From: a virus
IMG/VR virus record: IMGVR_UViG_3300028925_000752
Location: 1 to 20,155 of that record
DNA: 20,155 bases
Strand: one strand, 5' to 3'
The notes beneath the pieces were generated by a model. The model saw only the letters and a program-made list of their open reading frames with translations. It was not told the origin of the DNA and did not search any database. Below are positions 3,727-19,182 of this stretch, one piece after another. The translations under genes and the position numbers were made by a program. Every line of letters starts with the position of its first letter. Position 1 is the stretch's first letter.

Positions 3727-4350
3727 ATGGCATTAACAAACTACACAGAGCTGAAGACGGCTATTGCTGACTTTCTCAACCGCGATGACTTAGGTTCGGT
3801 AATCCCTACCTTTGTCTCGCTGTGTGAGGCTCAGGTCAACCGTCAGATCCGTCATTTCAAGATGGAGAATCGCGCTACATCAACGATAAATGAGCAGTAC
3901 CTGACACGGCCTAGCGATTGGTTAGAGACCATCCGAATGACCGTAGAGGCTGACACTACTCGACAGGTAGAGTTGATCTCACGCGCTGCGCTGGTCGATA
4001 AAAAGGCTCAAACACTGGGGGCTACAGGCGCGCCACGGTTCTATACGAATAGTGAAGACAGTTTCGAGCTGTACCCTGTACCCGATGGTGACTACGACAT
4101 CGAGGTTCTCTACACGCAAAAGATTCCTGCGCTGTCTGACAGCAACCCTACTAACTGGCTGTTGACCGACCACCCTGACGTTTATCTATACGGGGCACTG
4201 GTTCACTCAGCACCATATCTGCAGGAAGATGGACGGGCTCAGACTTGGGCTCAAATGTACGGGGCTGCTGTTCAGGCTGCCAATATGACATCAGAGAAGG
4301 CTAAGTACAGCGGATCTGGACTAACACCCAAAATACGAGGGCTACGATGA
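3727..4350 (+). CDS. Head-tail adaptor (SU10-type adaptor / P22 gp4-like)
   Basis: This is a 207-residue protein. The ATG is preceded by GGAG at 3717-3720, six bases away. The N-terminus, LKTAIADFLNRDDLGSVIP, followed by EAQVNRQIRHFKMENR, a middle LTRPSDWLE, and the C-terminal part WLLTDHPDVYLYGALVHSAPYL are hallmarks of the podovirus adaptor family. Its members form a twelve-subunit ring under the portal and join it to the tail nozzle after DNA packaging. The length fits the family. The helical start with conserved RDD and the late HPDVYLYGAL helix are the most diagnostic segments. It opens the tail module and overlaps the next gene by four bases (ATGA). I am confident of the family; the detailed contacts are inferred from homologues. 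Confidence 0.85.
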   Translation: MALTNYTELKTAIADFLNRDDLGSVIPTFVSLCEAQVNRQIRHFKMENRATSTINEQYLTRPSDWLETIRMTVEADTTRQVELISRAALVDKKAQTLGATGAPRFYTNSEDSFELYPVPDGDYDIEVLYTQKIPALSDSNPTNWLLTDHPDVYLYGALVHSAPYLQEDGRAQTWAQMYGAAVQAANMTSEKAKYSGSGLTPKIRGLR

Positions 4351-4727
4351 GCTTTTCAAACTACTTAGAAACCGAAGTGCTGGATCACGTTTTTGGCGGC
4401 AACGCTTACACTGCTCCATCTACTTTGTACCTTGGCCTATACACTGCAGCACCATCAGACACTGGCGGTGGCACTGAGGTATCTGGTGCAAGCTATGCAC
4501 GACAGTCTGCAGCTATGACTGTATCTGGCAACGAAGCTACTACTAGCGCATCCGTTGAGTTTCCTGCGGCTGGTGGATCATGGGGAACTATCACCCATGT
4601 TGGAGTATTTGACGCAAGCACAGGCGGAAACCTGCTGGCGTATGGCGCACTCACCGCAAGCAAGACTATTGATACTGGCGACATTTTCCGTATCCCAGCA
4701 GGATCTTTAGATATAACGCTGGACTGA
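4347..4727 (+). CDS. Small tail fibre-associated structural protein (Gp80-like)
   Basis: This is a 126-residue protein. Its ATG overlaps the adaptor stop (ATGA), with GAGG at 4337-4340 as ribosome binding site. The sequence follows a pattern seen in many tailed phages: an N-terminal YLETEVLDHVFGG helix, STLYLGLYTAAPSD, then EVSGASYAR, FPAAGGSWGTITHVGVFDA and a final IPAGSLDITLD. It is nearly all beta strand after the first helix. Homologues are usually annotated as phage tail fibre or minor tail protein (mycobacteriophage Gp80-like), and their exact role is poorly defined. Its place between the adaptor and two repeat-built fibre genes fits a small subunit of the tail or fibre attachment site. 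One base separates it from the next gene. Confidence 0.7.
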   Translation: MSFSNYLETEVLDHVFGGNAYTAPSTLYLGLYTAAPSDTGGGTEVSGASYARQSAAMTVSGNEATTSASVEFPAAGGSWGTITHVGVFDASTGGNLLAYGALTASKTIDTGDIFRIPAGSLDITLD

Positions 4728-4728
4728 T

Positions 4729-5544
4729 ATGTACTCTGTCGATTCATACTCTACGGTACCGATTGGGGCTGTAGAGTTAGACATAGTATCGGCGACTATA
4801 TTCGCCACTAGCGATGCCTCCATTACTGGGGGCTTTGTGCTGTCTGTAGACGCGCAAGTTTCTGCAGCTACTAGCCTGTCTGCAGCGATAAACCGCGTTA
4901 GATTGGCATCTGTGCAGGTTGACGGCCAGTCTGGATGGGCTGCCGGCGCAAACATTGTCAGGGATGGCGGATCGACAATACTTGTAACCAGTGCATCGCA
5001 GATGGCTGGTGAGCGGGTAGCTGAAGCACAATCAGCGATAAATGGCACAACACAACAGGCGACTATTGCTACGCGCATCCGCACAGTATCTGCCGACATA
5101 GATGGTTCTGCCGCCCTTGATATTGCAGGCGAGCGAGTAAAACTAGGTAATACTGAAGTTCAAGTACAATCTGGCATAGCTATTGATGCCAATCGAGTAC
5201 AGAGCGGCGCTGTTGTAGTATACGCTGACACTGGACATGACTTCTCTGCAAACGCTGTCAAGTCCGGCTCTGTGGTCATCTACTCTAACGCAAGCATAGA
5301 GTCTGACGCTGCAGTAACCGCTATTGGACAGGTGCAAGCTCTGGCTGAGGCTGGAGTTGATGTCGAGGGTGTTATACTCTGGGTTGAAGTGCCAGACGAC
5401 CAAGAGACTTGGACTGTAGTTACGACCGGCAATGAGATCTGGACAGACGCAAATAGCGACACACAAAATTGGACTGACACTGTAAGCGGCTCTGAAACTT
5501 GGGCTGATGCAACATCAACTACTGAAGACTGGGAGGCCGCATAA
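4729..5544 (+). CDS. Repeat-built tail protein: ten 20-residue repeats plus 10-residue Trp repeats
   Basis: This is a 271-residue protein starting one base after the previous stop. After 14 residues the sequence divides exactly into ten units of 20 residues (residues 15-214). The better units begin [NE]RV or NAV, have Gly or Ser near position 6, alternate hydrophobic residues, then end in Ala/Gly (for example [20 protein letters not shown]). After an 11-residue linker come four units of 10 residues, each with Trp at position 3 (ETW, EIW, QNW, ETW), and a short final EDW. No enzyme motif is present. Regular alternating hydrophobics in exact-length turns suggest a stacked beta structure such as a beta-helix or trimeric fibre shaft; that is inference. 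Its place between the Gp80-like gene and a fibre gene supports a tail-fibre or fibre-linker role. The stop overlaps the next ATG (TAATG). Confidence 0.7.
4771..5370 (+). repeat. Ten 60-bp coding repeats (20 residues each)
   Basis: Translation of this stretch falls into ten consecutive 20-residue units without any insertion or deletion. Units are recognisable at protein level ([42 protein letters not shown]) but have diverged at DNA level, so the array is old and kept by structural selection rather than freshly duplicated. Confidence 0.75.
5404..5541 (+). repeat. 30-bp coding repeats with one Trp per unit
   Basis: Four full 10-residue units start at 5404, 5434, 5464 and 5494, and a partial fifth starts at 5524. 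Each has the form x-x-Trp with mostly Thr/Asp/Ser after it: [46 protein letters not shown]. The period is exact and is half that of the preceding array. Confidence 0.75.
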
Positions 5545-6554
5545 TGGCTGATACGAACACAACTACTTTCAGCTTGGTCAAACCAGAGGTTGGCGCCTCT
5601 GAGGATACTTGGGGCACCAAGCTTAACGCTAACCTAGACACTATTGATGACTTGCTAGATGGCACTACTGCTATTAAGCCAAACCTTACTGTTGGCGAGT
5701 GGAAGGTAGGCGGCACTGCTGTTACATCTACCGCAGCAGAGCTTAATCTTTTGGACGGCGTTACGGCAACCACTGCCGAACTAAATCTGCTTGATGGCGT
5801 AACCGCAACCACTGCTGAGCTGAACATATTGGATGGCGTTACAGTAGATGCGGCGACCATCAACATTCTTGGCGATGTTACTGCAACGGCGGCAGAATTG
5901 AATATTCTTGACGGAGTAACTGCAACTGCCGCAGAGTTAAATTTGCTGGATGGCGTTACTGCGACAACTGCTGAGATTAACTTGCTAGACGGCGTAACCT
6001 CCACGACTGAAGAGCTTAATATTCTAGACGGTGTGACCGCAACCGCCGCAGAGATAAATGCTTTAGACGGCATTACAGCAACTGTAGACGAGCTTAATAT
6101 CCTAGACGGTGTAACCGCTACAGCATCAGACTTAAACGTCTTAGACGGCATTACAGCGACCACAGCAGAGCTTAACTACGTCGATGGCGTAACTTCTGCC
6201 GTGCAGACTCAGATCGACTCTAAGCTAGGCGATGAATATCAAGAAATGCCGCAGAACGCAAAAGACAGCTCTTATACTCTGGCTCTGTCGGATAGCGGTA
6301 AGCACCTGTATCACAGTAACTCTACAGCTTACACTTGGACTATACCGGCAAACAGCTCGGTAGCATTCCCACTTGGCACAGTAATTACTTTCGTGAACGA
6401 TGGTTCCGGCGATATAACTATTGCCCGCGCTTCCGGTGTTGCTTTGATTGTTTTTGGCACCGACCAAAACGCTACTCTGTCGCAATACGGCTTGGCCACT
6501 GCAATCAAAGTCGGCACTGATCGCTGGTATATCACTGGCACTGGTGTAGCGTAA
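5544..6554 (+). CDS. Tail fibre protein with [13 protein letters not shown] repeats
   Basis: This is a 336-residue protein. The ATG at 5544 overlaps the upstream stop and has GGGAGG at 5531-5536. The N-terminus ([22 protein letters not shown]) is the typical fibre start that precedes such repeats in many phages. Residues 63-218 are twelve 13-residue repeats around the consensus [13 protein letters not shown]; the fourth is the most divergent ([13 protein letters not shown]). The C-terminal ~105 residues ([14 protein letters not shown] ... [19 protein letters not shown] ... [11 protein letters not shown]) form a small beta domain common at the tips of phage fibres. This is a trimeric host-contact or shaft protein by family resemblance. 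No S74 chaperone is attached here. The stop overlaps the next ATG. Confidence 0.85.
5730..6197 (+). repeat. Twelve 39-bp coding repeats in the tail fibre
   Basis: Twelve in-frame units of 39 bases encode 13-residue repeats of the [13 protein letters not shown] type. Codon choice differs between units, so the DNA identity is lower than the protein identity. A long open frame on the opposite strand here is a by-product of this repetition. Confidence 0.9.
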
Positions 6555-7257: not shown

Positions 7258-8736
7258 ATGCCCTATGTCAGTATTGCTTTACCGGCAGGAATGCGCAATC
7301 ACGGCACAGACTTGGAGTCTACAGGACGATGGATTGATGGCAATCTGGTGCGCTGGCAAGGTGGATCTCTACGGCCAGTAAATGGCTGGGATCTGCGCAA
7401 AGCAACTTCATCATCGAACCCACCGCGCGGTTCTTTAGCATGGGTAGATAACTCATACGACCGACAAATTGCTTTTGGTACATCTAGCGAGCTATATGCC
7501 ATCAGTCAGGCAGGTGTACTAACCGATATCACGCCAACTGGCTTGGCTACAGGCTATGCAGATGCCGACGAAAACTTGGCATTTGGCGGCAAACCTTTTG
7601 GCACTGGATACTATGGCACAGAGCGCCCTTCTAACGGCGTTTTGCTGGAAGCGACTACATGGGCTTTAGATAACTGGGGCCAGAACCTTGTCGCCTGTCA
7701 CAGCGCTGATGGCCGTTTGTTCGAGTGGGATTTGAATACGTCAAACGATGCCGCTGTAATTGCAAACGCCCCCGTAAACAACAAGGGGCTACTGGTTACT
7801 GAAGAGCGATTCTTATTTGCCCTAGCCTCTGGCGGTAATCCGCGCAAGATTGCATGGTCGGATCGTGAAAACAATACCGATTGGACTCCAACTTCATCAA
7901 ACGAGGCTGGCGACATAGAGCTGCAGACTAGCGGCGAGATCATGTGTGGTGTACGCACAAAAGGTCAGGCAGTCATTATAACGAGCAGGGATGCGCACGT
8001 TGCCGTTTACCAGGGCCCGCCATATGTGTATGGCTTTGAGCGTGTAGGCAGCTCATGCGGCGTTATATCGCGTCAGGCGGCGGTCTCAGTTGTTGATGGT
8101 GCATTCTGGATGGGCACCAATGGATTCTATGTGTTCAACGGTTCTGCAGTGCAAGATCTGCCATGCGAAGTTAGAGACCATGTGTTCACTGATATGAACA
8201 CTGCGCAAAGCTCCAAGGTTGCTGCAGTGCACAATGGGCAGTTTGGCGAGGTCTGGTGGTTCTACCCTTCTGGCGATTCAACAGAAAACGACTCTTACGT
8301 CGCATATGACTATGAAGAGCAGCACTGGCACTTTGGTAAGCTAGATCGTACTACTGGAGTGGATCGAGGCGCATTCAACCGCCCCCTATGGTTCGATGCG
8401 AGCGGTAACGTATACGACCAAGAGAAAGGTAACAACTACGGCGGCCTAAAGCCTTACGTCGAGTCTGGGCCGATTATGATTGGTTCTGGTGATCAGATTG
8501 CTAAAGTTATTGGCCTAGTACCTGATGAAGAAACACAGGGCGACGTTACAGCCTACTTCAAGACTCGTTTCTACCCCAATGGTGAAGAGCGGGAGTATGG
8601 GCCATTTGCAATGGGCGAGCCCACTAACTGTCGATTCTCTGGCCGCCAAGTGCGGATGAAGTTGATCGGTAGAGACCTAGATGACTGGCGTGTAGGACAG
8701 ATGCGCTTAGACATTATTGCCGGCGGTAAGCGATGA
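7258..8736 (+). CDS. Tail nozzle / packaged-DNA stabilisation protein (P22 gp10-like)
   Basis: This is a 492-residue protein, close in length to P22 gp10 (about 470). The ATG is preceded by AAAGGTG. The N-terminus (PAGMRNHGTDLESTGRWIDGNLVRWQGGSLRPVNGW) is the recognisable start of a family found in many podoviruses, in which the protein forms a ring below the adaptor, seals the packaged DNA and continues the tail channel. The rest has repeated short motifs suited to a beta-propeller or beta-rich ring: LFEWD, FLFALASGGNPRKIAWSDREN, HVAVYQGPPYVYGFERVG, FWMGTNGFYVFNG, VWWFYPSG, YVAYDYEEQHWHFGK. A late KTRFYPNGEEREYGPF segment is followed by RQVRMKLIG. Gene order with the adaptor upstream supports the role. 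It overlaps the next gene by four bases (ATGA). An alternative label is simply tail tube protein gp10-like. Confidence 0.7.
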   Translation: MPYVSIALPAGMRNHGTDLESTGRWIDGNLVRWQGGSLRPVNGWDLRKATSSSNPPRGSLAWVDNSYDRQIAFGTSSELYAISQAGVLTDITPTGLATGYADADENLAFGGKPFGTGYYGTERPSNGVLLEATTWALDNWGQNLVACHSADGRLFEWDLNTSNDAAVIANAPVNNKGLLVTEERFLFALASGGNPRKIAWSDRENNTDWTPTSSNEAGDIELQTSGEIMCGVRTKGQAVIITSRDAHVAVYQGPPYVYGFERVGSSCGVISRQAAVSVVDGAFWMGTNGFYVFNGSAVQDLPCEVRDHVFTDMNTAQSSKVAAVHNGQFGEVWWFYPSGDSTENDSYVAYDYEEQHWHFGKLDRTTGVDRGAFNRPLWFDASGNVYDQEKGNNYGGLKPYVESGPIMIGSGDQIAKVIGLVPDEETQGDVTAYFKTRFYPNGEEREYGPFAMGEPTNCRFSGRQVRMKLIGRDLDDWRVGQMRLDIIAGGKR

Positions 8737-9787: not shown

Positions 9788-10288
9788 ATGTCAGGCGGCG
9801 GAAAAGGCGGTGGTCAAACCACTACAGCAAAGATTCCAGATTGGGTAAAAGAGCCCTCAATCCGAAACTTGGCGCGAGCTGAGGCAGCACAAAAGATTGG
9901 CTATATGCCCTATATGGGCGCAGATGTAGCCGCAATCAACCCCTTACAGCAACAGGCTATGCAGTCAAACTATGACGCTGCAGCAGCCTTTGGTATGGCC
10001 CCAGTTGGGGGTAATGCTATGGCTGGCTTACCGCAAGCGCAAGACTTTGGCGGGGGCGTGATGGGCTACAGCAGCTATCCGATGTTTGAGGCTGCGCAAC
10101 AGGAGTTGGCTGCTCAACAACCACAAACTCAGGCTGCTTACGATCAGTTGTTCTTCAACGATCGAGGTTATGCTGCGGCAAAACCCAATACGACTAATGT
10201 TGGCAACAACCCAAACAGCAAGTACGGCCCCTATTATCAGGGCACCACTGGGCTGCTAAATAATAACTTTTATGGCGGCATTGCATAA
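9788..10288 (+). CDS. Virion protein, N-terminal half of a probably split ejection-type protein
   Basis: This is a 166-residue protein with a GAGAGAGG-type ribosome binding site just before the ATG. It opens with a Gly/Lys-rich stretch (MSGGGKGGGQTTTAKIPDW) and continues WVKEPSIRNLARAEAAQKIGYMPYMGADVAAINPLQQQAM. This is the usual N-terminus of a long Gln/Ala-rich virion protein found in many podoviruses. In those relatives, as I recall them, a NPYENQVV...SGAFGG region follows in the same polypeptide; here that region is in the next gene. The C-terminus (NPNSKYGPYYQGTTGLLNNNFYGG) is Asn/Gly-rich and probably disordered. No signal peptide or catalytic motif is seen. A role as a DNA-ejection or internal virion protein is inferred from composition and neighbours. 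Confidence 0.6.
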   Translation: MSGGGKGGGQTTTAKIPDWVKEPSIRNLARAEAAQKIGYMPYMGADVAAINPLQQQAMQSNYDAAAAFGMAPVGGNAMAGLPQAQDFGGGVMGYSSYPMFEAAQQELAAQQPQTQAAYDQLFFNDRGYAAAKPNTTNVGNNPNSKYGPYYQGTTGLLNNNFYGGIA

Positions 10289-10314: not shown

Positions 10315-11643
10315 ATGGGCGCACCAGCAGGCACTAATGTAAATCAAAATACAGGCATCAATGGCACCGGTATGGGCGCACAAAATATTGGCGACTTCAA
10401 TCCCAACCTTCCAGCCGGCGTTCAACAATTTTTGCCTACATCCTCACCAGCAGGCACTAATGTAACTGGGAACGCAGGAATGCCGCAAAGCATGGTAAAC
10501 GCTGGCGGCCCTAACGTCTATCAACAGGCTGCTGCTGGTGTTACAGGCGGAATGGCAGGCACTGCACAAGAGATGGGCTACAACCCAATGCAAGTGCAGG
10601 CTGGAATGGGTAATGCAGCAATGGTAGGTCAGCAAGGCCCGCTATCTGCCGATCAAGTACAGGCTGGGCAGATTGCCAGCACTGACCTATCTGCCTATTT
10701 TAATCCATACGAAAATCAAGTTGTTCAGAATACACTGGCCGATATTAACCTGTCTGGACTGGCTCAGCAGAACGAGCTAGAAGCGCAAGCAAGCCGATCT
10801 GGCGCGTTTGGTGGCGCTCGGCATGGGGTAGCACTGTCTGGCCTTGGTTCTGAGCTTACACGGCAATCTGGGCAGGCTGCTGCAGCTTTACGTCAGGCTG
10901 GCTTCCAGAATGCACAGCAAATGGCACAGCAAGACATCGCAGGCCGTATGCAGGCTGATTTGGCTAACCAGAGTGCGAACCTAAACGCTGACACTACGAC
11001 TGCACAACTGGCTCAGCAAGCCGCTATGGGCAACCAAGCCGCTGCTAACGCTATGACTCAGTTTAACCTTGGCAACAACCTAACCGCACAGCAACTGAAC
11101 CAAACTGCTGGCCTACAAGGCTCACAGCAGCGCCTAAATGCGTCTAATCAGCTCGCTAACATAGGCAACCTAGGCTTTGGTATGGGGCAGGATATTCAAG
11201 CTAATATGGCCCGTGATGGCGCTCTACAGCAGGCTACTCAGCAAGCCATCATTGACCAAGCTAAAAACCAATACGCAGCGTACACTGGTATGCCTGCAAG
11301 CACTATTGGATACTTGTCACAGGCTCTTGGCGCGACTACTGTCCCGCAGTCTCAAGAGACCACTAAACAACTAGGCCTGATGGATTACCTATCTGCCGGA
11401 GCCAGTATTGCGTCGATGTCTGATCGTCGCCTCAAGAAAAACATTGAGAGCATTGGTGAGCTTAACAACGGCGTTAAGATCTACAAGTGGGATTGGAACG
11501 AAGCCGGTGAAGAAGTTGGCATGGTTGGATCTGGTATCGGTGTTATTGCACAAGAAGTTGCAGAGACTATGCCAGAGGCCGTACTTGAGGCTGACAACGG
11601 CTACTTGATGGTAGACTACAGAAAAGTATTGGAGGCCGCGTAA
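10315..11643 (+). CDS. Gln/Ala-rich virion protein with C-terminal Peptidase_S74 chaperone domain
   Basis: This is a 442-residue protein. The ATG has GGAG at 10305-10308, six bases upstream, and an in-frame TAA at 10300-10302 rules out an earlier start. Residues 1-120 are Gly/Asn/Gln-rich and low in complexity. Residues ~125-200 hold a conserved helical region (AYFNPYENQVVQNTLADI, then SRSGAFGGARHGVALSGLGSEL and AAALRQAGFQNAQQMAQQD), typical of podovirus ejection-type proteins. The C-terminus from residue 369 (SDRRLKKNIESIG, then VGMVGSGIGVIAQEVAETMPEAV and MVDYRKVLEAA) is a Peptidase_S74 intramolecular chaperone. Its Ser369 and Lys374 are placed like the Ser-Lys pair used for self-cleavage in endosialidase tailspikes. 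In those proteins the domain trimerises the spike and is cut off. Here the attached part is not beta-helical. Stop and next start overlap (TAATG). Confidence 0.75.
   Translation: MGAPAGTNVNQNTGINGTGMGAQNIGDFNPNLPAGVQQFLPTSSPAGTNVTGNAGMPQSMVNAGGPNVYQQAAAGVTGGMAGTAQEMGYNPMQVQAGMGNAAMVGQQGPLSADQVQAGQIASTDLSAYFNPYENQVVQNTLADINLSGLAQQNELEAQASRSGAFGGARHGVALSGLGSELTRQSGQAAAALRQAGFQNAQQMAQQDIAGRMQADLANQSANLNADTTTAQLAQQAAMGNQAAANAMTQFNLGNNLTAQQLNQTAGLQGSQQRLNASNQLANIGNLGFGMGQDIQANMARDGALQQATQQAIIDQAKNQYAAYTGMPASTIGYLSQALGATTVPQSQETTKQLGLMDYLSAGASIASMSDRRLKKNIESIGELNNGVKIYKWDWNEAGEEVGMVGSGIGVIAQEVAETMPEAVLEADNGYLMVDYRKVLEAA
10322..10465 (+). repeat. 21-bp direct repeat within the virion protein gene (10322-10342 and 10445-10465)
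   Basis: Two identical 21-base copies in the same reading frame, 123 bases apart start to start, both encode PAGTNV near the N-terminus of the S74-bearing protein. The first copy begins seven bases after the start codon. The identity at DNA level suggests a fairly recent duplication. Confidence 0.7.
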
Positions 11644-14832: not shown

Positions 14833-16950
14833 GTGGATCTAAAGCCAATGGAACGCGACGACGTAGAGGCTATTGCCCGCGACGCAGTAACAAACGCAGT
14901 AGACTTTGTTGAGTCGAATATCGCCTCAGATCGAATCAAGGCCCAGCGCTACTATGACGGCGAAACTGACATTGGCCATGAAGAAGGTCGATCTAAGGTT
15001 GTAGCCACTAAGGTGCGAGACACTATCCGTGCAATCAAGCCAAGCCTGATGCGCGTGTTCTTGGCTACTGATAAGCCAGTTGAATACGTCCCTACCAACC
15101 CTCAAGACGCCCCCGCCGCAGAGCAGGCTACTAGCTATGTATCTAAGCTGTTCAACGAGGTCGGCGGCTATCGTATTATCAACGATGCGTTTCACGATGC
15201 TCTGCTAAAGCGATCAGGTATCGTTAAGGCTTACTGGGACACCTATGAAGAGTCAGAGACTTACGAGTACAGCAATCTAACCGATGCAGAGTATTCAGTG
15301 ATTGTGAACGATGACGAAGTAACTGTCATCGAGCACGAAATGACTGAGAGCATGGAAGTAGAGATGAGCCCTGAGATGGGTATGGGTATGCCTGAGTATC
15401 AGCCTGCCATGCACTACCTGAAGATCTCTCGCAAGTGTGTCTACGGCAAGCTTTGTGTGGAGTCTATCCCGCCGGAAGAGTTTTTCGTAGACGAGAACGC
15501 CAAGTCTATCGACGACGCCTATGTTTGTGTACACCGCACTGAAATGCGTGTTGGTGAGCTTGTGGCTATGGGTTATGACTTCGACGAGGTTGTAGAGCTA
15601 ACCGGCCTGCAATACTCTGACTCATTCAGCGAGACTGAAGATTTTTACCGTCGCGGATACGATCAGGATCACGACGACGAGAACGTACTAGATCCGTCTA
15701 TGCGCTTAGTCGCCGTGTCTGAAGCCTACATGAAGATCGACGTAGAGGGCACTGGCATACCGCAAATGCACAAGATATTGCTTGGCGGTAACGACTACCA
15801 ATTGCTTGATTATGAGCCTTGGGGTGAAGTTCCCTTTGCTCACTTTGAGATTGATCCTGAGCCACACGCCTTCTTTGGTAGTTCTATTGCTGATCTCATT
15901 ATCAACGACCAAGACGCATACACTTCAATGCTGCGAGGCGTACTGGATAACGTCGCACTGACCAATAATCCACAACGTCAAATAATCGACGGCATGGTAA
16001 ACGTAGACGATCTGCTCAACAACGAGATCGGATCTATTATCCGCGTGGCCCAAGATGGCGCAGTTCGAGATCTCTCGGTACCTTTTGTTGCCGGCCAAAC
16101 CTTGGGTGCTCTGCAGTATTTCGACCAAGAGATAGAGTCCAAGACAGGCGTCACAAAAGCCTCTACAGGCCTTTCACCCGATGCCCTGCAAGCTACTACT
16201 GCTACGGCTGTAGCTGCCACTGTACAGGCTCAGGCTGGCCAGATCGAGGTCATGGCGCGTAACTTGGCAGAGGGCGGTATGCGTCGCCTGTTTAAGTTGA
16301 TCTTGAAGTTGGTTGTCGAAAACTCAGACGATCAGAAGATGCAATACTTCTCTGGCATGGACTACACGCCTATTGATCCGCGTATGTGGAACACTGGCAT
16401 GGATGTCAGCGTAAACGTCGGACTGGGTACTGGCCAAGAAGATCAGAAGCTTGCCACCCTGAACCAGACTCTACAGCTACAAATGCAGATCATGCAGGGC
16501 TATGGATTGCAGAATGGCGTAGTAACCCTGACAAACATACGCAACACCCTAGGCGATATGCTTGCCGTAGGGGGCGTTAAGAATGCAGACCGTTACTTCC
16601 AGCCCATGAACGCACAGATTGAGCAGCAACTACAGCAGCAGGCCGCACAGGCAGCTCAGGGCCAGCAACAGCAAGATCCGCAGGCTCAGGCATACTTGCA
16701 GGCAGAGCAGCTCAAAGCGCAGCAAAAAGCACAGTCTGATATGATGAAGATTCAGATCGAGGCGCAGAAAGCAATTGCTGCAGATGACCGTGAACGCGAC
16801 AAGATGGATCAAGATATGCTGGTAAAAGCAGCAGAGATCCTAGGTAAATATGGCACCGCTGTCGATGTAGAACGAATCAAGACAATGCAGAATGAGCCCC
16901 GATACCCTCAGCAAACACCGGCGCAGGCCGTACAGGGCGGTAGATTTTGA
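14833..16950 (+). CDS. Portal protein
   Basis: This is a 705-residue protein, close in size to P22 gp1 (725). The start is GTG at 14833, nine bases after AAAGGAG; an ATG five codons later is less well spaced. It forms the dodecameric ring at the unique capsid vertex through which DNA enters and leaves and to which terminase and adaptor bind. Recognisable segments include DRIKAQRYYDGETD and VATKVRDTIRAIKPSLMRVF near the N-terminus, ALLKRSGIVKAYWD, a central ISRKCVYGKLCVESIPPEEFFVDENA, HAFFGSSIADLIINDQDAYTSMLRGVLDN and NNPQRQIIDGMV. The last ~110 residues are Gln/Ala-rich and predicted helical (QQLQQQAAQAAQGQQQQ), like the C-terminal barrel helices of P22-type portals. Its position downstream of the tail and ejection genes, rather than next to the terminase, is unusual. 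The stop overlaps the next TTG start. Confidence 0.9.
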   Translation: MDLKPMERDDVEAIARDAVTNAVDFVESNIASDRIKAQRYYDGETDIGHEEGRSKVVATKVRDTIRAIKPSLMRVFLATDKPVEYVPTNPQDAPAAEQATSYVSKLFNEVGGYRIINDAFHDALLKRSGIVKAYWDTYEESETYEYSNLTDAEYSVIVNDDEVTVIEHEMTESMEVEMSPEMGMGMPEYQPAMHYLKISRKCVYGKLCVESIPPEEFFVDENAKSIDDAYVCVHRTEMRVGELVAMGYDFDEVVELTGLQYSDSFSETEDFYRRGYDQDHDDENVLDPSMRLVAVSEAYMKIDVEGTGIPQMHKILLGGNDYQLLDYEPWGEVPFAHFEIDPEPHAFFGSSIADLIINDQDAYTSMLRGVLDNVALTNNPQRQIIDGMVNVDDLLNNEIGSIIRVAQDGAVRDLSVPFVAGQTLGALQYFDQEIESKTGVTKASTGLSPDALQATTATAVAATVQAQAGQIEVMARNLAEGGMRRLFKLILKLVVENSDDQKMQYFSGMDYTPIDPRMWNTGMDVSVNVGLGTGQEDQKLATLNQTLQLQMQIMQGYGLQNGVVTLTNIRNTLGDMLAVGGVKNADRYFQPMNAQIEQQLQQQAAQAAQGQQQQDPQAQAYLQAEQLKAQQKAQSDMMKIQIEAQKAIAADDRERDKMDQDMLVKAAEILGKYGTAVDVERIKTMQNEPRYPQQTPAQAVQGGRF

Positions 16951-18216: not shown

Positions 18217-19182
18217 ATGGCACAGCCAAGCAATACTTTTGATTCATACGACGCCAAGGGCATTCGCGAAGATCTTGAAGATGTGATCTACGACATCAGC
18301 CCTGAAGAGACCCCCTTTTACTCAATGTGTAAAAAGGTCAAGGCTACTAACACTTACCACGAGTGGCAAACTGATGCGCTCCGTTCTTCTGCTGCCAATG
18401 CGCACATTGAAGGCGACGCAACTTCTGCTGAAGCTCGCGGTGCAACTACCCGTCGCGGCAACTACACTCAGATCTTCAAGAACGCTGTTGTTGTAGCTGA
18501 CACCGACGAAGGCCTGAACAAAGCTGGCCGCGCCAAAGAGATGGCTTACCAAGTCCTGAAGATTGCCAAAGAGCAAAAACTCGACATTGAAAAAGCTCTC
18601 TTTGACAACAACGCCCGTGCTGCTGGCGACTCTTCAACTGCTCGCGAACTGGCCGGTGCTCCTGCTTGGATCGTTAGCAACGTTGATTTCCAAGACGGCA
18701 ACAGCGGTGCAAACCCAACTGGCGACGGCACTGACGCCCGTACTGATGACGGTACTCCTACCGTATTCAGCCAAGCTAAGTTCGACAACGTAATGCAGCA
18801 AATTTGGGAAAGCGGCGGCAAGCCCGACGTATGTTTCCTATCTGCATTCCAGATGAACAAAGCCTTGGGCTTCACTGGCATGAACAACCAACGCAGCACT
18901 ATCGGTGCATCTGTTGGCGGTACTAACGCTGTAATTAACGCAGTAGACGTTTACGTTACTCCTTGGGGTACCGTTGAGTTTATGCCTACTCGCGAAAACC
19001 GCAGCCGTGACGTATTCATCATGCAGAAGGATATGTGGGCTGTTGGCGTACTGCGCCCAACCAAGAACACTCAACTGGCAAAAACTGGCGACAACACTAC
19101 TCGCCAAGTTGTCACTGAGCTGACTCTTGTATGTAAGAACGAAAAGTCTAGCGGCATCATTGCAGACAACACTGTAGCGTAA
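18217..19182 (+). CDS. Major capsid protein (SU10-type, DUF5309 family)
   Basis: This is a 321-residue protein. AGGAG precedes the ATG by nine bases. It starts ATG-GCA and has a higher GC content than the early part of the window (33 of 60 bases in 18421-18480). The segments QPSNTFDSYDAKGIREDLEDVIYDISPEETPFYSM, TYHEWQTDALRS, IEGDAT, RGNYTQIFKNAVVVADT, LDIEKALFDN, and the later VDVYVTPWGTVEFMPTR and VFIMQKDMWAVGVLRPT match the major head protein family of Escherichia phage SU10 and many environmental podoviruses (HK97 fold). It builds the capsid shell together with the scaffold encoded just upstream. A strong terminator lies 21 bases after the stop. Very likely this is the most highly expressed gene of the window. 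Confidence 0.92.
   Translation: MAQPSNTFDSYDAKGIREDLEDVIYDISPEETPFYSMCKKVKATNTYHEWQTDALRSSAANAHIEGDATSAEARGATTRRGNYTQIFKNAVVVADTDEGLNKAGRAKEMAYQVLKIAKEQKLDIEKALFDNNARAAGDSSTARELAGAPAWIVSNVDFQDGNSGANPTGDGTDARTDDGTPTVFSQAKFDNVMQQIWESGGKPDVCFLSAFQMNKALGFTGMNNQRSTIGASVGGTNAVINAVDVYVTPWGTVEFMPTRENRSRDVFIMQKDMWAVGVLRPTKNTQLAKTGDNTTRQVVTELTLVCKNEKSSGIIADNTVA

Follow-up and report, generated by a model that had tools for sequence, protein, structure and literature searches.

The locus described here raises the question of what is made by a gene that directly follows a member of the Gp80 family of phage genes and whose product consists largely of short repeats of near-constant length, and of what part such a protein might play in the virion. 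The window, by which we mean the whole stretch of DNA that was analysed, is the entire IMG/VR record IMGVR_UViG_3300028925_000752 (20,155 nt), and Pfam and PHROG scans recover from it the gene set of a tailed phage.

The gp80 gene and its neighbours

The genes of the window that are referred to in the argument are the following:

3727..4350, plus strand: SU10-type tail adaptor of 207 aa, upstream of the Gp80 gene (PF24175, E 4e-36; PHROG 2941)
4347..4727, plus strand: Gp80-family protein of 126 aa, the predicted bead protein (PF23140, PHROG 240, PDB 8jou_a)
4729..5544, plus strand: repeat protein of 271 aa, putatively of rope type, with an ATG start and a TAA stop (ORF list, junction bases, conserved N-terminus)
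5544..6554, plus strand: tail-fibre-like protein with its own type of repeat, the downstream neighbour of the repeat gene
7258..8736, plus strand: virion structural protein of 492 aa (PHROG 3287, E 1.4e-89)
14833-16950: portal (PHROG 1216)
18217-19182: major head protein (PHROG 1328)

The Gp80, repeat and tail-fibre-like genes are tightly packed, since a single base separates the Gp80 stop (which ends at 4727) from the ATG of the repeat gene at 4729, and the tail-fibre-like gene, whose ATG is at 5544, shares one base with the end of the repeat gene. The tail-fibre-like gene contains tandem repeats, and the long minus-strand ORF at 5519-6163 that lies opposite to it is probably no gene. Farther away, the ORF at 730-2409, between the terminase end and the adaptor, has matches to LPD23 and DUF6782 (a putative metallopeptidase) of the kind that occur in polyvalent proteins; the protein of 10315-11643 carries a C-terminal Peptidase_S74 chaperone domain, and the ORF immediately 5' of it (9788-10288) may belong to the same gene. 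In phage Venkman, a gene downstream of the relative of the repeat protein bears the annotation "stabilization protein".

The 4347-4727 product belongs to the Gp80 family by its match to PF23140 (E 5.9e-48, with 162.9 bits against a cut-off of 27) and to PHROG 240 (E 4.7e-34), and its sole match among solved chains is chain a of PDB 8jou (E 6.9e-14), an entry titled "Fiber I and fiber-tail-adaptor of phage GP4". Fold comparison was run on the model of a relative, L062, and not on the window protein; the Gp80 part of that model superimposes on GP4 8jou_a with Z 9.6 and rmsd 2.8 (111 aligned, 31% identity), on chain K of the Sf14 entry 9c39, which is gp31, with Z 9.6 and rmsd 2.5 (101 aligned), and on chain K of the Bas63 connector with Z 9.2. 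Genes of this kind are numerous in phage records: the Gp80 of the window matched 409 records at E 0.001, and an IMG/VR scan that started from five aligned Gp80 sequences found at least 558 relatives.

The 20-residue units and the Trp ladder

The repeat protein itself divides into three parts:

4729..4770, plus strand: residues 1-14, an N-terminal aromatic/Ser segment that resembles the N-termini of relatives
4771..5370, plus strand: residues 15-214, ten contiguous 20-residue units (lag test and unit model; family consensus ERVRLGSATISATSSVTASG)
5371..5541, plus strand: residues 215-271, the Trp ladder, whose first Trp is residue 4 past the last unit

A first-pass annotation of this DNA, made from the sequence alone, had begun the protein at 4771, which is in fact residue 15; the start codon lies at 4729, and the N-terminus upstream is common to homologues (MYSVSPFST in the closest relative, L004, MYGLSAFSQ in Venkman and MFGICSFSQ in ctXG6705). 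This segment is a possible anchor for the protein. The same annotation had divided residues 15-214 into ten 20-residue units with no gaps, and this is borne out by the self-similarity of residues 1-214, which reaches z 7.4 at lag 20 and z 6.1 at lag 40, where the maximum over lags 4-44 in 1,000 shuffles was 4.5. For residues 214-271 the values are z 6.7 at lag 10 and z 7.1 at lag 20, the 95% level of the shuffle maxima being 3.2. The 10-residue period that had been proposed for the C-terminal Trp turns is thus confirmed but their start has to be moved, as the ladder opens with W218 rather than W228 and has six rungs rather than five (W218, W228, W238, W248, W258 and W268); when its units are counted from residue 215, there is no gap after the tenth 20-residue unit. 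The gene of L004, which is 77% identical, ends past the third Trp rung. The repeat protein matches no Pfam or PHROG family at E <=0.001, and among 48 scanned members of the repeat family two PHROGs and one Pfam family were each hit by a single member, with E values of 0.00085 to 0.00096; the Pfam scan of these 48 listed matches up to E 0.01.

For a broader view of the repeat grammar we used 57 non-redundant sequences, left from 90 after removal at a BLAST identity of >=60%, among which are the window protein and three Bcep22-like proteins. The mean excess similarity in this set is 0.99, 0.92, 0.81 and 0.65 at lags 20, 40, 60 and 80, and -0.03, -0.05 and -0.04 at lags 10, 30 and 50, which amounts to an average period of exactly 20 over long stretches and supports the earlier suggestion that the exact lengths reflect a structural constraint. 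A unit made of two similar 10-residue halves is ruled out by the value at lag 10, and a two-unit super-period, with one unit for each half of a Gp80 dimer, was also rejected (30 of the 57 sequences have a higher value at lag 40 than the average of lags 20 and 60, p 0.64). The unit model, whose consensus is given above, was trained on the ten units of the first-pass annotation; most of its positions offer a choice of small or beta-branched residues, in line with the low identity that had been remarked upon among the units, and small and hydrophobic residues alternate along it. When proteins are parsed with this model the spacing between units is 20 in 375 of 432 cases, and it is 21, 22 and 24 in 15, 7 and 8 cases, so that unit length, which the first-pass annotation held to be invariant, does vary to a small extent; the parser charges for gaps and therefore leans towards 20, while the lag test is independent of it. 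The number of units is variable, from 4 to 23 in 54 of the proteins, with one unit each in the three Bcep22-like proteins.

The Trp ladder usually keeps a fixed register with the repeats, the first Trp after the last unit being at offset 4 in 39 of the 57 sequences, at 14 in four, at 24 in one and elsewhere in 13. Ladders range from 1 to 6 rungs in the family, and at least two rungs (a Trp, then Trp, Tyr or Phe at +10) are found in 53 sequences and one rung in the other four. Some members contain long non-repeat stretches amid the repeats (L032, L036 and L076). Such a part is present in L032 (922-2514) and L036 (2657-5050), and in L032 only it gives a sub-cut-off match to Laminin_G_2 (E 0.004). 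L076 (6735-7973), L079, L090, L095 and L097 have in common an insert of ~100 residues, HPxRFSTTSDGTHxSGTEYTTGVT...YYCxxHxGMGG, which is cupredoxin-like by eye, although the insert-bearing protein of L076 has no Pfam match. Two alignments (A1 and A2) were so diverse that they could not serve to search for patterns.

Pairing of the repeat gene with gp80

From the IMG/VR scan we kept the best 80 of the at least 558 loci. These are the best-scoring relatives of the Gp80 of the window and include near-identical pairs, so that they represent neither an independent nor a random sample. The ORF after gp80 is complete in 73 of the 80 loci and is cut by the contig end in the other seven, which were excluded. 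At least one pair of Trp residues spaced by 10 occurs in the last 60 residues of 66 of the 73 complete ORFs, as compared to 2 of 433 other ORFs from the same loci (plus-strand, mechanically called and >=150 residues long) and 11% of shuffled tails; a search for the Trp repeat in homologues had been proposed in the first-pass annotation. The ORFs that follow gp80 in L029 and L078 end, by eye, in Tyr/Trp variants of the ladder, and in L087, L092, L096, L098 and L102 gp80 is directly followed by a different gene, while a repeat protein that has 3 to 5 Trp-Trp pairs is encoded further downstream. A looser test, for any aromatic ladder with spacing 10, was dropped after 79 of 438 control ORFs passed it, mostly the adaptor with its Tyr-Trp pair; five of those 438 controls were the displaced repeat proteins, and the strict Trp-Trp test was used instead.

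The 20-residue period is also common in this position. Over whole proteins and lags 4-44, the best lag among the 80 next ORFs is 20 in 45, 40 in 13, 10 in seven and another value in 15, and local tests on the 73 complete ORFs find some lag with z >4 in 49, of which 44 have it at lag 20. In the reverse direction, 11 loci were found by way of the repeat protein; in seven of these gp80 lies upstream at a distance of ~2.0 to 4.1 kb, and the repeat gene of the remaining four starts <2 kb from the contig start. In the window, too, the repeat gene adjoins gp80, as we would expect of a rope gene.

The lag test was also run on named phages. Lag 20 reaches z 11.6 in the Methylophilales phage Venkman, whose repeat protein is gp51 and whose Gp80 homologue is gp59, 10.5 in ctXG6705 and 10.0 in MEP402, and ctvy9321 has its best lag at 21 (z 10.0); the values are lower for PBC5 (4.4), phiM5 (3.2) and Itty13 (2.8). 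MEP402, a Methylophilales phage (L009, 3256-4379), has a repeat protein that ends, as does the product of the next gene, in Trp motifs of the type YVKxxGxWK, which are spaced by >10 and appear by eye to be a different Trp module. Among the Bcep22-like phages the protein after gp80 gives z at lag 20 of 8.1 (IL02), 6.9 (DC1), 4.2 (JC1) and 3.2 (Migl). Lags 20 and 22 are mixed in this group (lag 22 in JC1, z 5.3), and the match to the unit model is weak, being equalled by fractions of 0.036 (IL02), 0.006 (DC1) and 0.074 (JC1) of shuffled sequences.

In ten further phages, chosen annotated genes near gp80 were tested rather than every gene. A z >5 at lag 20 was found beside gp80 in the mycobacteriophages Dati (8.6) and CELFI (6.2) and in the Psychrobacillus phage PVJ1 (5.5), and two genes from gp80 in Velveteen (7.4). 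No such value was found among the tested neighbours in the other six (Mvi-JY20 with 4.8, J4, Yut3, Rollin, ph08 and Gmala1 with 3.6); lags that have nothing to do with the repeat rose as high as 4.8 here, so that smaller values mean little. The mycobacteriophage minor tail proteins (phrog_416) encoded at 2789-3949 of L108 and 3596-4753 of L120 have 20-residue repeats and lie next to or near a gp80 homologue, and Dati gp33 has a Gly_rich_2 domain (E 2e-15) past its 20-residue repeats. Across the named phages the partner has been annotated variously as hypothetical, virion-associated, minor tail protein, E3 ubiquitin-protein ligase and serine-rich adhesin.

A proposed cord through Gp80 beads and the alternatives to it

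Each fibre I of the Ralstonia podophage GP4 reportedly consists of five gp80 dimers that are joined by an elongated rope protein. In the available text of PMC13243795, chain g of 8JOU is described as forming a fibril in GP4 and the GP4 Gp80 protein as a dimer. The window resembles this system in pairing a Gp80-family bead gene with a gene for a presumably elongated partner, and for the Gp80 half the likeness is clear in both sequence and model. For the other half, no PDB chain convincingly matches the cord family or its Bcep22-like counterparts, which are relatives of GP4, and a search of the window for a homologue of the 93-residue chain D of 8jou, by way of BcepIL02 gp57, gave nothing convincing (E 0.36). 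These counterparts differ from the window family in their mixture of lags 20 and 22 and in having, by eye, no C-terminal Trp ladder (1-2 rungs by count). From the gene pair and the repeats we infer that the window family represents a rope of the GP4 type.

The neck whiskers of Sf14 and Bas63 (PDB 9c39 and 9mt4) offer another likeness, in that a Gp80-like protein, gp31, is combined in Sf14 with a threading protein, gp30. According to the available portion of PMC11821841, each whisker set of Sf14 comprises two gp30 and two gp31 chains, and a single gp30 chain threads both whiskers. Sf14 gp31 falls into the same PHROG as the Gp80 of the window (PHROG 240, E 1.9e-27); against PF23140 it scores below the cut-off (E 1e-4), and hhalign gives a probability of only 31% (E 5e-4). 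The threading protein gp30 (phrog_3977, 166 aa), unlike the window protein, is free of 20-residue repeats when read by eye, and the unit model gives no match to it, its best score being reached by 18.6% of 1,000 shuffles; we thus regard Sf14 as a precedent for the mechanism and not as evidence of membership.

Two further systems have been described in the literature. In phage LSH1, as far as the accessible text of PMC13243795 goes, gp35 is a Gp80-like dimer with an HHpred match to 8JOU_g that, in LSH1-related IMG/VR genomes, always co-occurs with a protein bearing a low-confidence beta-helix stretch, and its authors ask if a repetitive motif is the cause of the poor beta-helix model. The gp34-gp35-gp36 module of LSH1, as presented there, is like the pair in the window in combining a Gp80-like dimer with a puzzling beta-helix-like partner; gp34, known here from that description alone, differs from the window protein by an additional lyase-like domain. 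A gene in the first 40 kb of Slicko01 that was considered as a candidate for an LSH1-like module proved to encode an unrelated conserved protein. Phage A-1(L) has five bead-chain fibres at its neck, made of gp82-gp81-gp80, and in the part of PMC10966104 that was available the beads are modelled as head-to-tail trimers and no cord is described, in contrast to a cord of the GP4 type; the name gp80 in that phage is probably a coincidence of numbering.

AlphaFold2, run on the repeat protein alone with 48 sequences, gave a mean pLDDT of 51.3 and a pTM of 0.38, and Foldseek found no match to this model at E <=0.001. The rigid, self-standing stacked shaft that the first-pass annotation had proposed is thus unsupported, as no confident structure was obtained for the monomer; a monomer prediction is, however, blind to trimerization and to the binding of a partner, and regular strands are present in the low-confidence model, about one every 10 residues across much of residues 20-213. 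The Trp ladder has no strands in the model, yet residues 221-240 show the highest confidence (66 and 71 in blocks of ten). In a single-chain model of Gp80 plus the repeat protein of L062, the pLDDT in blocks of ten starts at 32-37 over the first 20 residues, is 59-82 over residues 21-120 and drops to 23-51 in the cord; this would be expected if the chain needs its partner in order to fold, but a poor repeat alignment would have the same effect.

In our view the protein of 4729-5544 is probably the cord, or rope, that threads dimers of Gp80 into a bead-chain fibre like fibre I of GP4, and this fibre would reach from the virion towards the host. The main rival, which we consider unlikely but take seriously, is a free-standing beta-solenoid or trimeric beta shaft in which each unit would be one two-strand turn, the turns would stack to a rod with the Trp region as a thinner continuation, and Gp80 would decorate or cap the rod instead of being threaded. 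The near-exact unit length with its small drift, the alternation of small and hydrophobic residues and the strands of the low-confidence model are all in its favour. So is the top-Z match of the cord part of L062, the curli protein CsgA (Z 10.7), but the rmsd of that match is 8.1; whatever the low-confidence cord models resembled in fold (GlmU, LpxD, CsgA and others) was set aside as evidence. The poor pLDDT and pTM and the empty Foldseek search speak against a solenoid, as does the dissimilarity of the unit halves at lag 10, though a solenoid is compatible with the latter. A beta-solenoid rises by ~4.8 Angstrom per turn, and ten turns would therefore span only ~5 nm, which is short for a part that links several beads. 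Fixed unit length with free unit number would be shown by a cord that seats beads and by a solenoid alike; it is the combination of the gene pair, the precedent for threading and the failure to fold alone that tips the balance towards a cord. Several results count against a cord of the GP4 type: the L062 model, with its low pLDDT in the cord, shows no direct contact to Gp80, PDB chains give no convincing match, the two-unit super-period was not found, the Bcep22-like proteins match the unit model only weakly and by eye have no C-terminal ladder, and in six of the ten further phages the tested neighbours of gp80 stayed below z 5 at lag 20.

The cord would work as follows. The Gp80-family protein from the upstream gene would form dimeric beads, and the extended cord would pass through a row of them. 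The beta-strand-forming stretches of each 20-residue unit (RVxxGxAxIxGxAxVxAxG) would dock on Gp80 at a fixed spacing, as a result of which unit length would barely drift while unit number would be free to do so. By its N-terminal aromatic segment the cord may be anchored at the neck or tail collar, if this is indeed the end at the virion. The Trp ladder at the other end, whose register with the last unit is usually fixed, may hold the final beads or some piece that terminates the fibre.

That the protein is an adhesin, with its Ser/Thr/Ala-rich strands displayed, its Trp ladder binding a host glycan and Gp80 a mere anchor, seems improbable to us. The tail-fibre gene neighbourhood would suit an adhesin, and so would the extra domains of some relatives (the weak Laminin_G_2 match of L032 and the Gly_rich_2 domain of Dati gp33). 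Adhesive tips are usually variable, whereas the units and the ladder recur across diverse relatives, and the register of the ladder is fixed to the last unit in most of them, as a contact made during assembly would suggest. The least credible of the readings is an assembly factor that is no part of the virion, such as a scaffold that gathers Gp80 dimers and then departs. Two cases speak for it and against the cord, JC1, where the virion proteins named in the available text of PMC9144972 include the Gp80 homologue gp53 and not gp54, the protein of the slot next to gp80, and phiM5, whose record flags the Gp80 homologue as a particle protein but does not do so for the repeat protein. Against such a factor stands the label virion-associated that the protein in this slot bears in the records of BcepIL02 and BcepMigl; moreover, mass spectrometry readily overlooks small low-complexity proteins with few tryptic sites.

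A bolder form of the cord reading, to which we give rather less than even credence, is that the cord acts as a molecular ruler. Each exact 20-residue unit would seat Gp80 subunits in constant number, so that a fibre would owe both its bead count and its length to how many units its cord has (4 to 23 in the proteins parsed), with the Trp ladder as an end stop. On this view the family would supply the half of Gp80 fibres that has been missing in podo-, sipho- and myophages, mycobacteriophage minor tail proteins included, a half that Pfam and PHROGs hardly cover among the 48 members scanned. Should the cord reading itself be true, it would name the partner of a large class of phage fibres, explain why structure prediction fails for such proteins when they are folded alone, and provide these fibres with a simple code for length in the number of their units.
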